A stretch of 64,000 bases of DNA from Kiritimatiellia bacterium (GTDB taxonomy: Bacteria > Verrucomicrobiota > Kiritimatiellia > PWTM01), in assembly GCA_026417735.1 (NCBI GenBank), contig JAOACR010000018.1, forward strand, positions 62,001 to 126,000, read 5' to 3'. The notes beneath the pieces were generated by a model. It made no database searches. It saw only the letters and a program-made list of their open reading frames with translations, and was not told where the DNA came from. Numbering within the stretch: position 1 is the stretch's first letter; each line of letters opens with the position of its first letter. Shown piece after piece: positions 54,020 through 59,897 of this stretch. The translations under genes were made by a program, and so were the position numbers.

Positions 54020-54913
54020 GTGAACGCGACCGGCGGATCGTCCCCTCGCACCAGCGTGCGGACCTTTCGAGCGGAAGCGGCCGATGACGGCCAGCCGCTC
54101 GAACGCGTGTTGATGCGACGGCTCCGGCTGTCCCGGCGCGGCGCGCGCCGGCTGCTCGACACGCGGCGGGTGTTTGTGAATGGGCGGCGCGTCTGGATCG
54201 CTCATCACCGGGTTCGGGCCGGTGACCACATCGAGACGCCTGCGGTGGTCGCGCCGTTCGGTGCCGTGCCGATTCGCGTTCTGTACGAGGACGAAGAACT
54301 TCTGGTGGTGGACAAACCGGCGGGCATCGTGACGACCGGTGAGGAGGGCGTCGAGGGTCGCCTTCAGCGCGAACGGGGCGAACCCGAGCTGCGTGCGGTC
54401 CATCGGCTGGATCGGGACACCACCGGCTGCCTGCTGCTGGCCCGCTCCGCGGCGGCACGGGAGCGGTTGGTGGAGGACTTCCGCGCCGGCCGGGTGCGCA
54501 AACGCTACCGGGCGATCGCGATCGGCCGCTGGCCCGCGGAGGAGACAGAAATCCGCCGGCCGATCGAGGGACGCAGTGCGCTGACCCGCGTTCGGGTCAT
54601 CGCGGCGAATGCGATGGCGTCGCACCTCGTGCTGGAGATTGAGACAGGCCGCACGCATCAGATCCGACGCCATCTGGCGGGCCGCGGCCATCCGGTCGCC
54701 GGCGATCCGCTCTACAGTGCCGGCGTGAGCGTGGGGCCAGAGCTCCGCGCGGTGCCGCGTCCGATGTTGCATGCGGAACACCTCGAGCTGCCGGGGGCGT
54801 CGGGCCGGCGGGTTGCGGCGAGTGCGCCGCTGCCTGCGGACTTTCTCGAAGTGCTGCGACTTCTGGGGCTCTTCGGTCGGCCTGGGCCGACGGGCGGAGC
54901 GCGCGCCGAGTGA
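54020..54913 (+). CDS. RluA family pseudouridine synthase
   Basis: A 297-residue rRNA/tRNA pseudouridine synthase. An S4 RNA-binding domain (about 26-75; RRLLDTRRVFVNGRRV) precedes the catalytic domain with D131 in the hallmark HRLDRDTTG and GRTHQIRRHL-type late motif (TGRTHQIRRHLAGRGHPVAGD). Target position cannot be told. Start is the GTG at 54020, seemingly leaderless. Its stop overlaps the following gene's GTG (54910), so the two are coupled. Confidence 0.92.
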   Translation: MNATGGSSPRTSVRTFRAEAADDGQPLERVLMRRLRLSRRGARRLLDTRRVFVNGRRVWIAHHRVRAGDHIETPAVVAPFGAVPIRVLYEDEELLVVDKPAGIVTTGEEGVEGRLQRERGEPELRAVHRLDRDTTGCLLLARSAAARERLVEDFRAGRVRKRYRAIAIGRWPAEETEIRRPIEGRSALTRVRVIAANAMASHLVLEIETGRTHQIRRHLAGRGHPVAGDPLYSAGVSVGPELRAVPRPMLHAEHLELPGASGRRVAASAPLPADFLEVLRLLGLFGRPGPTGGARAE

Positions 54914-56121
54914 CGCAAATGAACGATGTGGTGAGCGAACTGGTGCGGGAGATGGCCTCGTGCGTCGCAGCCGCGCGCGCGGCGGGGTTGCGGCTGCCCG
55001 CGGTGGTGGAGTTTGAACCCGGCGCCCTCGGGCGGCTGCGCGCAGTGGTGCGGATGGTTGCGAGCGGCCCAGGGCCGGTGCTGGTGGTCGCCAACCGGTC
55101 CGTGAGCGATGCGGCTCGCCGGGCGGCGATCCAGCACGCGGTCGGCGAACCGCTCGAGTGGCGGGAGGTCCGCGGCGAGCCCGCCTGTGACACGATCCAC
55201 GCACTCGCGGAGGTCGCGCGCAACCTGCAGCCTCGGCTCGTGATCGGGCTGGGGGGTGGCAGCGCCATCGATGCGGCAAAAGCGGTTGCGGCGCTCGTGC
55301 GCAACGAGGGGGCCGTGGAGGAGTATCTGGAGGGCGCACAGCCGCGCCGCGTGCTCGATGCCGCGCCGGTGCCAGTGATTGCGATACCGACCACCGCCGG
55401 CACCGGCGCGGAGATGACGCGCAACGCGGTGATCGGCTGGCCGGCGCGCCGCGTCAAGCGAAGTCTGCGCGACGACCGACTGATGCCCGCGGCAGCCGTG
55501 GTGGACCCCCAGTGGACGCTGGAGCTACCGGTCTCCCCGACGTTGTCCAGCGGCCTCGACGCGCTGACGCAGCTGATGGAGTGCTGCATTTCGCGCCGCG
55601 CGATGCCGACGACGACCGGACTGGCCTTGCGAGCGCTGCGATGGATCCGGTGGGCGTTGCCGGCGGCGCTCGAGCGGCCGCACAACCTTGCGGCACGCAC
55701 GGCGATGGCCGCAGCGGCGTCGGTCAGCGGCATTTGCCTGGCGAACGCCGGGCTCGCGATGGCGCACGGTATTGCGGCGGCCCTGGGCGCGGTACGGCCG
55801 GTGCCGCACGGGTGGGTGTGTGGCGTGCTGCTGCCCCATACCCTGCGGTTCAACTGCGCGGTGGCGAAATCCGCGCTCGCGGAAGTGATGGGGGCGTGGT
55901 TGGGGAAGCCCGCCAGTGTGCCCAGAATCGTCGAGGAGGGACTGGCGGATCTTGAAGAGTGGTATCGCCGGCTGGGCGTGGCGCCGGACTTCCGCGAGCT
56001 GCGGCTGACGTCGGCTGAAATTGAAGAGATCGCGGTTGGATCGCTCGGCCGCAGCATGGACGGCAACCCCGTGCCGATGACGGCGGATTCGGTGCGGGCG
56101 TTTTTACATCCGTTGTGCTAG
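54910..56121 (+). CDS. Iron-type alcohol dehydrogenase family protein with altered metal and catalytic residues
   Basis: A protein of 400-403 residues of the group III (iron-containing) alcohol dehydrogenase family. NAD-binding GGGS (112-115) and PTTAGTGAE (157-165) are kept (numbering from ATG 54919). Of the usual metal ligands, D214, H283 and H297 are present, but the canonical His four residues after the Asp (DALTH) is Gln218 (DALTQ). The catalytic His that normally follows four residues after the third ligand is Ala287 (HGIAA). Activity as a standard Fe/Zn alcohol dehydrogenase is doubtful. Starts: GTG 54910 overlapping the previous stop, or ATG 54919. It lies directly before tRNA-Ser. 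Confidence 0.85.
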   Translation: MTQMNDVVSELVREMASCVAAARAAGLRLPAVVEFEPGALGRLRAVVRMVASGPGPVLVVANRSVSDAARRAAIQHAVGEPLEWREVRGEPACDTIHALAEVARNLQPRLVIGLGGGSAIDAAKAVAALVRNEGAVEEYLEGAQPRRVLDAAPVPVIAIPTTAGTGAEMTRNAVIGWPARRVKRSLRDDRLMPAAAVVDPQWTLELPVSPTLSSGLDALTQLMECCISRRAMPTTTGLALRALRWIRWALPAALERPHNLAARTAMAAAASVSGICLANAGLAMAHGIAAALGAVRPVPHGWVCGVLLPHTLRFNCAVAKSALAEVMGAWLGKPASVPRIVEEGLADLEEWYRRLGVAPDFRELRLTSAEIEEIAVGSLGRSMDGNPVPMTADSVRAFLHPLC

Positions 56122-56342: not shown

Positions 56343-56432
56343 GGAGGGGTGGCAGAGCGGTCGAATGCGCCGGTCTTGAAAACCGGATCCCGCAACCGCG
56401 GGACGTGGGTTCGAATCCCACCCCCTCCGCCA
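56343..56432 (+). tRNA. tRNA-Ser (anticodon TGA)
   Basis: An 87-base tRNA followed by an encoded CCA (56430-56432). The acceptor stem is GGAGGGG with CCCCTCC. The anticodon stem CCGGT/ACCGG (56370-56374 with 56382-56386) carries the loop CTTGAAA with anticodon TGA at 56377-56379. A long variable arm (CCCGC-AAC-CGCGGG region) confirms a class II serine tRNA. The T arm GTGGG-TTCGAAT-CCCAC is regular. Confidence 0.97.
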
Positions 56433-56692: not shown

Positions 56693-57679
56693 CTACAGGC
56701 TGCCGCCAAGGTCGGCGGGGCCCTCGTCGGACCACTCGCCATTGGCCAGCAGCCGGCGACGCAGCCGTCGGAACACCTGCAGCACGCCGGCCGCCAGCGC
56801 ACCCATCCCCACGATGCCCGGCTCGGGGATCGCGGCGGCGAGCTGGTCGTAGTACACCGCGGTGGTCAGGTTCGCCGCCCAGCTGCGGTTCCCATACACG
56901 ATGGCCGACGGCCAGGGCTGCCCGGGTTCGACGCCGACGTTGTACAACATGCCGACCAGCTCCCAAGTTGCGCCGGACTTGTAGAATACGGGCCCGCCCG
57001 AGTCCCCGATCACCGCTTGCGCCTCGTTCGGGCCCGCATCGTCGTTGAACGTGACGCGGAACGAGGTCGTCGTCAGCATGTAGTAAAGGTCGAAGACGTT
57101 GACGCTCTTGAACGGGTTGTCAATGGTGTTGAGCCCCCACCGCTGCTGCAACGAACCGGTCGTCATCTTGAAGCCGGTATACACCGCGCCTGCCGCGTTG
57201 GTCTCCTGCCAGGAGGAGTTCCAGTAGCTGTTGGTCGGATGCCGCTGACGACCGTTGCCGATCATGACCAGCTGTGCGTTGTCGGGAATCTGCGAGGACC
57301 GTAGCGTCACGTCCGGGAGCGGCGGCGCGGTTTGGGTTCGGACCAGCACCATGTCCGCGAAGGTGCCGCTGGAGTTGGTGATGCGCGTCCAGGTGTTCGA
57401 CTCCAGCGGGTACCAGGTGCCGCCGAACCGCACCTGTGTGGGCTGGTCGTTCGAATAGACGTGCCAGGCGGTCAGCACCCAGCGGTTGCCGAGATACACC
57501 GCACTGTTTTGGCCGACGTTGAACTGCCCCACGTTGGCCCATCCAGGGTCGTCGGGTGGCGCATTTGTGTTGCCGAGACCGTCGCCGCCCGCGATCACCA
57601 CCGCCCGCCCGGCCTCGGCCCCGGCGATCGCCAAAAGGCAGCTCAGCCGCCAGAACCATCGTGACGCCGCTGCTCTCAT
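56693..57679 (-). CDS. PEP-CTERM-anchored trypsin-like serine protease
   Basis: A 328-residue exported protein. Signal peptide 1-24. The chymotrypsin-fold triad is complete: H73 in TAWHV, D109 in FADMVLV and S227 in GDSGGP. The C-terminus is a PEP-CTERM sorting signal: P285-E286-P287, a hydrophobic stretch (IVGMGALAAGVLQVF) and a basic run RRLRRR, normally processed by an exosortase, which is not in the window. Unusually, 19 residues (LLANGEWSDEGPADLGGSL) follow the basic run, where such signals normally end. ATG 57679 is preferred over GTG 57682, with GAGGGG upstream. Its promoter is predicted at 57716-57743. Confidence 0.88.
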   Translation of the reverse strand: MRAAASRWFWRLSCLLAIAGAEAGRAVVIAGGDGLGNTNAPPDDPGWANVGQFNVGQNSAVYLGNRWVLTAWHVYSNDQPTQVRFGGTWYPLESNTWTRITNSSGTFADMVLVRTQTAPPLPDVTLRSSQIPDNAQLVMIGNGRQRHPTNSYWNSSWQETNAAGAVYTGFKMTTGSLQQRWGLNTIDNPFKSVNVFDLYYMLTTTSFRVTFNDDAGPNEAQAVIGDSGGPVFYKSGATWELVGMLYNVGVEPGQPWPSAIVYGNRSWAANLTTAVYYDQLAAAIPEPGIVGMGALAAGVLQVFRRLRRRLLANGEWSDEGPADLGGSL

Positions 57680-57715
57680 CACCGCTTCCCCTCGATACTG
57701 TCGTCGCCCGGGGAC

Positions 57716-57785: not shown

Positions 57786-58667
57786 TCAGAGCGCCGAGAG
57801 CTTCCACTGCTCTCGCAGCGTCTCAAATGCGCGCGGCACCTCGACCATGGGGTCGGTGCCTTTGCGGATGCCGCACTCGAGACTGCAGAACCCGACGTAG
57901 CCGATTTTGCGGAGCCCTCGCATGCCTTCCACGAAGCTGTGCTCCTCCTGACCGGGGAGGATGCGAGATTTGCCGGTGGCGATGTGCACGTGGTGCAGCC
58001 ACGGGCCCCCCGCGACGATCGCGGCACACTGGTCGGTCTCTTCGCGGGACATGTGGTAGAAGTCCGCCATCAGGGCGATGCCCGGCGAGTTCACCTTTCG
58101 GCAGAGTTCGGCCGCCTGTTCGACCCGGTTCAGGTAGAACGTTTCGCCCTTGTTCAACGGCTCGAGCAGCACGCGCGTGTTGCACTTGACGGCGTGTTCC
58201 CCCAGCGCCGGCAGGATGTCGAGCAGGATCTTGTCCAGCTCGGCGGGCGGCAGCTCGCTTTCCTTGTGGAAGCAGGGCACGAAGATGACACCGCGCGCGC
58301 CGAGCTCGCCCGCGGTCGAGAGCGCGTCGCGCAGCGCCTCGATGCCCTTCCGGCGACGATCGGCGTCGGTGGAGACCAGATCCCCTTTGTGCGAGCCCCA
58401 GCACAGCGCGCTGACTTTCACCGGTGTGCCCGCGAGCGCCTCGCGGATCTCCGCGATGCGCCCTTTCGGGTTGCCGTGCAGCTCAATGCCGTTCGCGCCC
58501 CACGCGACGAGGTTCGCGACCTTCTCCTTCAAGGTGGCGCCGGGCACCCGGCTCTCCTGACTCGACAGATTCAGTACCGCCTCCGCGGTCTGCGCGCGCG
58601 TGCGCGAAGCGCTCCAGATCGCGAACGCGGCGGCCGCTCCATGTTGGAGAAATGAACGACGGTTCAT
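57786..58667 (-). CDS. Tat-exported TIM-barrel sugar isomerase/epimerase-like protein
   Basis: A 293-residue protein of the xylose-isomerase-like/AP-endonuclease-2 superfamily, related to hydroxypyruvate isomerase and sugar phosphate epimerases. Tat signal: NRRSFLQHGAAAAFAIW. The barrel has the usual acidic and His metal positions (LLEPLN, ADFYHM, HVHIATG, SLECG). The ATG at 58667 has a GAGGAG upstream. Its substrate is unknown; the Tat signal again points to an extracytoplasmic sugar enzyme. It lies alone between the protease and the ABM gene. Confidence 0.82.
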   Translation of the reverse strand: MNRRSFLQHGAAAAFAIWSASRTRAQTAEAVLNLSSQESRVPGATLKEKVANLVAWGANGIELHGNPKGRIAEIREALAGTPVKVSALCWGSHKGDLVSTDADRRRKGIEALRDALSTAGELGARGVIFVPCFHKESELPPAELDKILLDILPALGEHAVKCNTRVLLEPLNKGETFYLNRVEQAAELCRKVNSPGIALMADFYHMSREETDQCAAIVAGGPWLHHVHIATGKSRILPGQEEHSFVEGMRGLRKIGYVGFCSLECGIRKGTDPMVEVPRAFETLREQWKLSAL

Positions 58668-58767: not shown

Positions 58768-59064
58768 TCAGCCTGACGGCGCCAGCGCGTGGTAGCGGTC
58801 CCCACGGCGCGGCTCGGCCATCCACGGCGCAACCGCGTCGCGCCAGGCCGCATAGTGCGGCGTCTGTTTGTGTGCGGCCGCGTCGGCCTCGCTCGCATAG
58901 GCCTCGTACAGCACGAAGTGCGTCGGGTCATCGGCGGACTGCAGCACGTCGAACCGGCGGCAGCCCGGCTCGCGGATCGAGGCCTCGTGGTTGCGGCGGG
59001 TGGCCTCGATGAAGTCGGCCAGATGCTCGGATTTCACGCGCACGTGCACGAGGGTCACGATCAT
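58768..59064 (-). CDS. Antibiotic biosynthesis monooxygenase (ABM) family protein
   Basis: A 98-residue small alpha/beta barrel protein of the ABM superfamily (quinol monooxygenase/LsrG-like). Typical pattern: an N-terminal VTLVHVRVKSEHLADFIEATRRNH strand-helix, EPGCRRFDVLQSADDPTHFVLYEAYASEADAAAHKQTPHYAAW. Substrate unknown; many act on quinols or are stress-linked. Start ATG 59064 is preferred over the longer 59142 frame because it overlaps the dapB stop by four bases (ATGA). Confidence 0.88.
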   Translation of the reverse strand: MIVTLVHVRVKSEHLADFIEATRRNHEASIREPGCRRFDVLQSADDPTHFVLYEAYASEADAAAHKQTPHYAAWRDAVAPWMAEPRRGDRYHALAPSG

Positions 59065-59897
59065 GGTGATGTCTCCGTTGGGGTGTCGAGCTCCAGCACA
59101 TCGCGCATCGAGTAGAGGCCCGGTGGCCGGCCGACGATCCACCGTGCCGCCTGCAGCGCGCCGACCGCGAACGTCTCACGGCTCGTCGCGCGGTGCGAGA
59201 GCTCGATGCACTCCCCCGCGCCGGCCAGCAGCACTGTGTGGTCGCCCACAAGGTCCCCGCCTCGCACCGCGTGGAATCCGATCTGGCGCTCCGGCCGCGC
59301 GTGCGGGCTCATCCCGTGGCGTCCGTGCACCGCGACCTCGTCCCACGGCCACTCGAACCCGCGCGCGACCGCCTCGCCGAGCGCCAGCGCGGTGCCGCTG
59401 GGCGCGTCGCGCTTCTGGCGGTGATGGCGCTCGATGATTTCCACGTCGTAGCCGCGGCCGCGCAGCGCGCGCGCCGCCCGCTCGACCAGCGCCAGCAGCA
59501 GGTTCACGCCCACGCTCATGTTCGGCGACATCACGACCGGGATCCGCCGCGCGGCCAGCTCGACCTCTCGCCGCTCCTCCGCGTTCAGGCCGGTGGTGCC
59601 GATCACCAACGCGCGCCGCCATTCCGCGCAGCGCGACGCGTTGCCGGCGGTGCCGTGATGGGCACTGAAGTCGATCACGACGTCCGCGGCCGGCGCGACG
59701 GCGGCGAGGTTGGCGGTGAGCGCAACGCCCAGCTCGCCCGCGCCGGCGACCAGCCCGGCATCGCGTCCGATCTCCGGACTGTCCCACAGGTCCACCGCGC
59801 CGACCAGCTCCACCTCCGGCACCGCGCGCGTCGCGATGCAGCGCACCAGGGTGCGGCCCATCCGGCCCGCCGCGCCCACCACCACCACCTTGGTCAT
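59061..59897 (-). CDS. dapB: 4-hydroxy-tetrahydrodipicolinate reductase
   Basis: A 278-residue DapB, the NAD(P)H-dependent second step of the diaminopimelate/lysine pathway. Seen: the N-terminal GAAGRMGR (8-15), IDFSAH near 75-80, IGTTG near 99-103, SPNMSVGVN and the signature ERHHRQKRDAPSGTA with H158-H159 and K162. Start ATG 59897. The stop overlaps the ABM gene start by four bases. It follows the cytochrome gene by 48 bases, so the three may be cotranscribed, though no functional link is obvious. Confidence 0.95.
   Translation of the reverse strand: MTKVVVVGAAGRMGRTLVRCIATRAVPEVELVGAVDLWDSPEIGRDAGLVAGAGELGVALTANLAAVAPAADVVIDFSAHHGTAGNASRCAEWRRALVIGTTGLNAEERREVELAARRIPVVMSPNMSVGVNLLLALVERAARALRGRGYDVEIIERHHRQKRDAPSGTALALGEAVARGFEWPWDEVAVHGRHGMSPHARPERQIGFHAVRGGDLVGDHTVLLAGAGECIELSHRATSRETFAVGALQAARWIVGRPPGLYSMRDVLELDTPTETSP

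Follow-up and report, generated by a model that had tools for sequence, protein, structure and literature searches.

Among the group III alcohol dehydrogenases (ADHs), the enzyme Adh3/DhaT of Oenococcus oeni (4FR2) is a 1,3-propanediol dehydrogenase that depends on NAD+ and was crystallised with Ni2+, as given in Table 1 in the available part of PMC5125639; in the excerpt consulted of PMC7594077 it is described as active with Ni2+ and inhibited by Zn2+. For E. coli FucO, His267 is held to touch the substrate and not the metal, and human ADHFE1 carries Tyr at this position, according to the available text of PMC5125639. In the same text, NAD+ binders carry Asp or Thr in the coenzyme column and NADP+ binders carry Gly. 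LsrG proteins, which are of concern below, act on a phosphorylated diketone in the breakdown of AI-2, as stated in the excerpt consulted of PMC12274486. The window (the whole stretch of DNA that was analysed, 64,000 nucleotides from a Kiritimatiellia bacterium, contig JAOACR010000018.1 of assembly GCA_026417735.1) encodes an ADH of this group in which two of the active-site residues of FucO are replaced. The gene and its relevant codons are as follows.

54910..56121, + strand: group III alcohol dehydrogenase of the Gln clade, 403 amino acids from GTG 54910, with an alternative in-frame start at ATG 54919.
55252..55263, + strand: GGGS nucleotide-binding motif, residues 115-118, whose three Gly (G115, G116, G117) do not vary over 53 aligned rows.
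55558..55560, + strand: codon of Asp217, a predicted metal ligand, Asp in all rows with data.
55570..55572, + strand: codon of Gln221, which replaces a ligand His, Gln in 86 of 113 rows and in 163 of 210 rows of the larger alignment.
55765..55767, + strand: codon of His286, a predicted metal ligand, His in all rows with data.
55777..55779, + strand: codon of Ala290, placed by alignment in the column of FucO His267 (FucO numbering from the available text of PMC5125639).
55807..55809, + strand: codon of His300, a predicted metal ligand, His in all rows with data.

The open reading frame at 54910-56121 was intact over its 403 codons. Both domains of an iron-type ADH were recognised in the protein, with 127.7 bits against PF00465 (cut-off 31.3) and 109 bits against PF25137 (cut-off 27), and the GGGS motif and, in the predicted model, the two-domain fold of group III ADHs were present. 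In alignments including E. coli FucO and YiaY, it was found that Gln221 aligned with the ligand His of the DALTH motif and Ala290 with the second His of GLVHGMAH in FucO. D217, H286, H300 and G115-G117 were invariant down to 27% identity, and S118 did not vary among the 10 close-clade rows. The initial annotation had described the gene as an iron-type ADH with Gln for a ligand His and Ala for the second His, the Asp, two His and GGGS being kept, and the alignments bore this out; none that was made placed His at either position. The residues that it listed (D214, Q218, H283, A287, H297) were correct, but their numbers were 3 too low for the GTG start that it gave, since they had been counted from the in-frame ATG 54919; from GTG 54910 they are D217, Q221, H286, A290 and H300. 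A frameshift or misalignment as the cause of the missing His was ruled out, because the frame is intact and close relatives agree. The window ADH does not have the four-ligand Asp/His/His/His set, its second ligand position being Gln221, and 4FR2 departs from the set likewise. None of the named NCBIfam equivalogs (FucO, PsrA, ErcA, GbsB, SarD, EutG and others) was matched above its curated cut-off; the best was lactaldehyde reductase with 184.1 bits against a cut-off of 523, and the glycerol dehydrogenase model PRK09423 gave 47.5 bits against a cut-off of 336.

Of 288 genomes searched in the phylum, 168 gave matches to the ADH at E 1e-30. The search for homologues sharing Gln and Ala, which the initial annotation had advised, was run: Gln was present in 30 of the 30 loci first read (from the phylum or family search, the window's own excluded), and the named-genome loci, which were the best 80 of at least 588 confirmed relatives among at least 597 pattern matches, comprised 55 with Gln and 25 with His. 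Gln is thus common among relatives, and a one-off oddity was ruled out. A larger alignment of 210 rows, two of them doubled (L219 = L197, L220 = L207), was drawn by similarity to the window protein, and it therefore does not mirror the family at large in its proportions. Among its 163 Gln rows, position 290 was His in 64, Ala in 42, Gly in 35, Ser in 16, Tyr in 3, Pro in 1 and Gln in 1; one Gln row had no data there, and one row of the alignment had none at any of the five positions. In the 46 rows with His221 (two of which, one with Arg and one with Asn, were counted twice), position 290 was Tyr in 17, Arg in 8, His in 7, Asn in 7, Phe in 3, Glu in 2, Gly in 1 and Ser in 1.

These distributions indicated that the two changes are separable. 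The 64 Gln rows with His290 ruled out a strictly paired Gln/Ala change, as the initial annotation had supposed, and L085 and L097, both lying within the Gln clade, combine a ligand His with Gly or Ser at 290. The term 'catalytic His' used there for position 290 could not be upheld either: the spread among the His221 rows, of which only 7 of the 46 sampled carry His, and the Tyr of human ADHFE1 demonstrated that the position is variable and holds no universal catalytic residue. In a FastTree phylogeny of 114 rows, the Gln clade consisted of 88 rows, including the His rows L085 and L097, with SH-like support of 98; in a quick tree with the two trait regions excluded, the Gln column needed 2 changes. 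The tree excludes 4FR2 and three loci (L227, L229 and L233) of a D-Q-H-Y-H type, i.e. group III proteins in which Gln occupies the metal position and Tyr position 290; for the two of these that were scanned, L227 and L229, the best model was TIGR03405, below its cut-off. The Gln-site branch of the iron-type ADHs is a widespread and little-studied one.

The AlphaFold2 model of the window protein, built with 52 rows from named loci, had a mean pLDDT of 95.0 and a pTM of 0.93. The top solved fold matches of this predicted model were B. methanolicus MDH, Zymomonas mobilis ADH2 and FucO, with Z of 50.9-52.7, and glycerol dehydrogenases matched at Z of about 33-36; such matches to a model speak to the fold and not to function. 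In the 210-row alignment, the column of FucO Asp39 was Gly in 85 of 94 Gln rows with a small residue at 290 (Gln+small) and in 51 of 64 Gln rows with His290 (Gln+His), and Asp in 36 of 46 His-ligand rows. In view of this Gly, the Gln clade is predicted to favour NADP(H); the prediction is weaker for the window ADH, which has Asn62 instead of Gly. As to the metal, Ni2+ use has been described for YugJ with the standard four ligands (in the available part of PMC8836905), so that Gln alone is no predictor of Ni2+, and the Ni2+ of 4FR2 need not stem from its Gln. The initial annotation had suggested a different metal, a new substrate or a loss of redox activity. A different metal or a new substrate is possible, whereas loss of redox activity is disfavoured by the invariant Asp/His/His and GGG and is made unlikely by 4FR2, in which the same Gln occurs at the ligand site of a metal-bound, active family member.

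Two genes of the window come into question as neighbours with a bearing on function. The one directly upstream, to which the initial annotation had considered the ADH translationally coupled, is

54020..54913, + strand: RluA-type pseudouridine synthase (PF00849 and S4), with a 4-nt overlap with the ADH start, a lineage-specific neighbour.

The overlap is real here, and it recurs in the closest relative (locus L005, RluA 557-1444, ADH 1441-2664); the coupling is lineage-specific, however: RluA is present in one of nine close relatives (genome G003), and the window RluA at E 1e-8 had no match in the stretches around the other 8. We take the neighbour to be a peroxiredoxin-like gene in G001, G002 and G008; in G059 and G164 it is presumably fmt-like and divergently oriented, and in G121, G019 and G068 we assume it to be rlmN-like, all by sequence reading. 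With the neighbour differing among the nine relatives, a function of the ADH inferred from RluA was rejected. By sequence reading, an rlmN-looking gene follows the ADH on the same strand in L124, L125 and L126 (three genomes of family f3), and G008 has an RsuA/RluB-looking gene about 2 kb from the ADH (L121, 5120-5875, - strand). The presence of several rRNA-modification genes near clade members may be chance. On the other side of the window ADH, a tRNA-Ser (tga) at 56343-56432 on the + strand lies between it and the next genes, both on the - strand. These are an apparent secreted trypsin-like protein with a PEP-CTERM-like tail (56693-57682, from sequence reading alone) and a xylose-isomerase-like TIM-barrel protein (57786-58667, PF01261), whose best NCBIfam match was 5-keto-L-gluconate epimerase, below cut-off. 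The latter gene adjoins the second neighbour in question, an order kept in G003 (L118):

58768..59142, - strand: LsrG-like ABM-domain protein, 98 amino acids from a likely internal ATG (MIVTLVHV...), the proposed functional partner.

This protein scored 79.1 bits against PF03992 (cut-off 23.1), which places it among ABM-domain proteins, and 84.8 bits against the NCBIfam LsrG model PRK10486, below the cut-off of 135. It is the sole PF03992 match in the window's genome, lies about 2.65 kb from the ADH and aligns with ABM genes that abut ADH relatives. Such an ABM gene is a commoner neighbour in the clade, which the initial annotation had overlooked. When the neighbourhoods of the 55 named Gln loci were clustered, the most recurrent neighbour by far was an ABM gene of about 100 residues at or just before the ADH start, in 15 loci. 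By profile search, 24 of 86 Gln loci (17 of the 55 named and 7 of the 31 others) had an ABM gene just upstream on the same strand, at gaps of no more than 359 nt; among the 25 named His loci the one case was L085, nested in the Gln clade. By record title, the named cases, which are mostly metagenome-assembled, belong to Planctomycetota, Verrucomicrobiota, Pseudomonadota, Spirochaetota, Chloroflexota and Acidobacteriota, and L085 adds Bacteroidota as a seventh phylum.

In 80 further loci of the phylum, an ABM gene just upstream was observed in 10 of 12 Gln+small, 0 of 56 Gln+His and 0 of 12 His loci. After pooling, the gene was present at 34 of 92 Gln loci without His290, 0 of 62 Gln+His loci and 1 of 37 His-ligand loci. 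The other 58 of the 92 had no ABM gene in the stretch read, for which contig ends account in part only; because some contigs end near the ADH, the adjacency counts are lower bounds. What is new here is that Gln ADHs without His290 often stand just behind an LsrG-like ABM gene. Counted against a partnership is the arrangement in the window and in G003, where about 2.65 kb or more separate the ABM gene from the ADH and the two lie on opposite strands; of the remaining close relatives, G001 yielded no ABM gene, and the others carry it on a different contig.

The two genes were also compared genome by genome, the state of each genome resting on one or two fetched ADHs. LsrG-like genes at E 1e-10 occurred in 45 of the 288 genomes. 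Among genomes whose ADHs were read, an LsrG-like gene was present in 36 of 38 with a Gln+small ADH (the match being weak, at E about 1e-12, in G192, G195 and G204), in 0 of 61 with a Gln+His ADH and no Gln+small ADH among those read, and in 2 of 7 with His types only. The ADH is present without a clear LsrG-like gene in G227 and in G001, the latter 68% complete. When seven further genomes with an LsrG-like gene were checked, G012, G256 and G208 were seen to carry Gln+small ADHs. In G165 a Gln ADH, unreadable at 290, is near an ABM frame with one stop; G179 and G062 have an LsrG-like gene with Gln+His and other ADH types, no Gln+small being found; and G072, the last of the seven, has a His type. 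The ABM matches of G072 and of two other genomes, G221 and G260, were weaker (E about 1e-13 to 1e-12), and the ADHs read from these three were all of the His-ligand kind. Four genomes of the same family without this ADH at 1e-20 (G004-G007, 83-91% complete) had no LsrG-like gene, with a best E of 0.2. Retention of the ABM gene where it is no longer adjacent makes the ADH-ABM link credible. Within the phylum the loss of His290 was a single event (1 independent pair), so the match of residue and partner is not separable there from shared descent by statistics.

LuxS was found in 0 of 31 genomes searched, the window's own included, which makes it unlikely that the cell produces AI-2 itself, and AI-2 catabolism with an endogenous signal was rejected. 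The AI-2-quenching oxidoreductase of PMC4942472, a short-chain dehydrogenase according to the available part of that paper, was rejected as a relative. Literature searches combining ADH with ABM, LsrG or quinol monooxygenase returned no paper on an ADH-ABM pair, as judged by titles and the first part of abstracts.

The window ADH is probably a working enzyme. The explanation that we favour, and hold with moderate confidence, is that it is a metal-dependent group III ADH or carbonyl reductase of the Gln clade which shares a pathway with the LsrG-like protein. It builds on the residues, the predicted fold, the clade and the co-occurrence with the ABM gene described above. Asp217, His286 and His300 would bind a divalent metal (Zn, Ni or Fe), and Gln221 would either coordinate it more weakly through oxygen or nitrogen or belong to the second shell. 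The metal would polarise the carbonyl or hydroxyl group, hydride being exchanged with NAD(P)H, of which NADP(H) is the probable form. Ala290, at a place taken by His, Tyr or Arg in other members, might widen the substrate pocket. Within the sub-clade, the ADH and the LsrG-like protein would serve a common pathway, whose compound is most likely a small oxo- or hydroxy-carbonyl, a class proposed from the chemistry of LsrG, the operon of ArqI (see below) and the absence of LuxS. To our knowledge, no activity, metal or substrate has been reported for any member of the sub-clade, which was counted against this explanation.

Three other explanations were considered. A zinc enzyme in the manner of glycerol dehydrogenase, in which the Gln would stay outside the sphere, Asp/His/His would bind Zn2+ and the substrate would be a polyol or hydroxyketone, appears unlikely to us. 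Glycerol dehydrogenases do bind zinc via one Asp and two His in the available text of PMC5125639, and they match the ADH model in fold; but the top matches, at Z about 50, are iron-type ADHs, the score against the glycerol dehydrogenase model falls far below its cut-off, and 4FR2, with the same Gln, is the Ni2+ enzyme inhibited by Zn2+ (excerpt of PMC7594077). Gene context was also in favour of this rival in Rhodobacterales, where the ADH of L078, L090 and L113 is directly adjacent to a kinase gene or overlaps it, these kinases forming one cluster and the L078 kinase scoring above the GlpK cut-off, and these neighbours hint at polyol substrates in that sub-clade; beside the window ADH, no kinase gene was recognised by eye. 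Sugar-kinase-like ORFs were seen near L069 too.

A metal-free reductase, with a site too weak for metal and side chains that activate the substrate, seems to us quite improbable. It is modelled on the maleylacetate reductases, which are active without metal, and the same has been suggested for FeADH2 (cd08183), which has a glutamine at a metal position (available part of PMC5125639). In that text, the metal-free state of maleylacetate reductases is put down to Asn or Arg in place of the ligand Asp, whereas Asp217 and the two His are kept here; GraC keeps the equivalent of FucO His267 in the same source, which the window ADH does not; and 4FR2 with its Gln holds Ni2+. Least probable of all, and by our estimate highly so, is a pseudo-enzyme or regulatory protein without redox activity. 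The replacement of two FucO active-site residues would fit it, as would the 163.5 bits against the NCBIfam model ErcA (named alcohol dehydrogenase-like regulatory protein), which are below the cut-off of 550. Against it stand the invariance of G115-G117 and Asp/His/His across great divergence, the rarity of His at position 290 even among His-ligand rows, and the compatibility of Gln with activity in 4FR2 (PMC7594077, in excerpt).

Returning to the metal-dependent enzyme that shares a pathway with the LsrG-like protein, a bolder form of it may be put forward tentatively. Gln+small ADHs and LsrG-like ABM proteins, which by adjacency occur together in seven phyla (record titles), might constitute an undescribed conserved two-enzyme module, in which the ABM protein would isomerise or oxidise a reactive dicarbonyl or enediol and the ADH, with a non-iron metal, would then reduce the product by means of NADP(H). 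If so, it would be through the replacement of His290 that the ADH became suited to the substrate of the module. Many group III proteins are labelled "iron-containing alcohol dehydrogenase", and the Gln clade departs from the textbook metal site; together with the recurrent pairing with LsrG-like ABM genes, it offers a handle on metal choice and substrate in an uncharacterised part of the family, and it suggests what LsrG-like genes might do in bacteria that lack LuxS. For the name of the window gene, caution is advisable over both "iron" and "alcohol".

Compared with known systems, the window ADH resembles 4FR2 in having Gln in the same ligand column (DAFVQ, HMMER alignment), with a fold Z of 49.6 and an rmsd of 2.3 over 374 residues against the window model; it differs in that 4FR2 keeps His in the 290 column (HAMAH), and the two share 24% identity. 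FucO (1RRM, lactaldehyde reductase) is similar in fold (Z 50.9), with 27% identity and the Asp/His/His in common, but it has four ligands (D/H/H/H), His267 and Asp in the coenzyme column, where the window ADH has Asn62. FeADH2, compared by description only, has no characterised member in the available text of PMC5125639, and its glutamine at a metal position is a likeness; that text names Asp242 as replaced, whereas the window ADH keeps the Asp and has Gln four residues on. The GldA family shares the three protein metal ligands Asp/His/His (same source, available part), but its match to the window ADH is far weaker in both sequence and fold. For the partner, the likeness to E. coli LsrG consists in its matching PF03992 and, below cut-off, the LsrG model, although inspection by eye of the genes next to the window copy revealed no lsr gene. 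P. aeruginosa ArqI is likewise LsrG-like and is encoded in a glyoxal-induced operon with the glyoxalase GloA2, according to the excerpt consulted of PMC12274486, whereas the partner of the window ABM gene is an ADH, not a glyoxalase.
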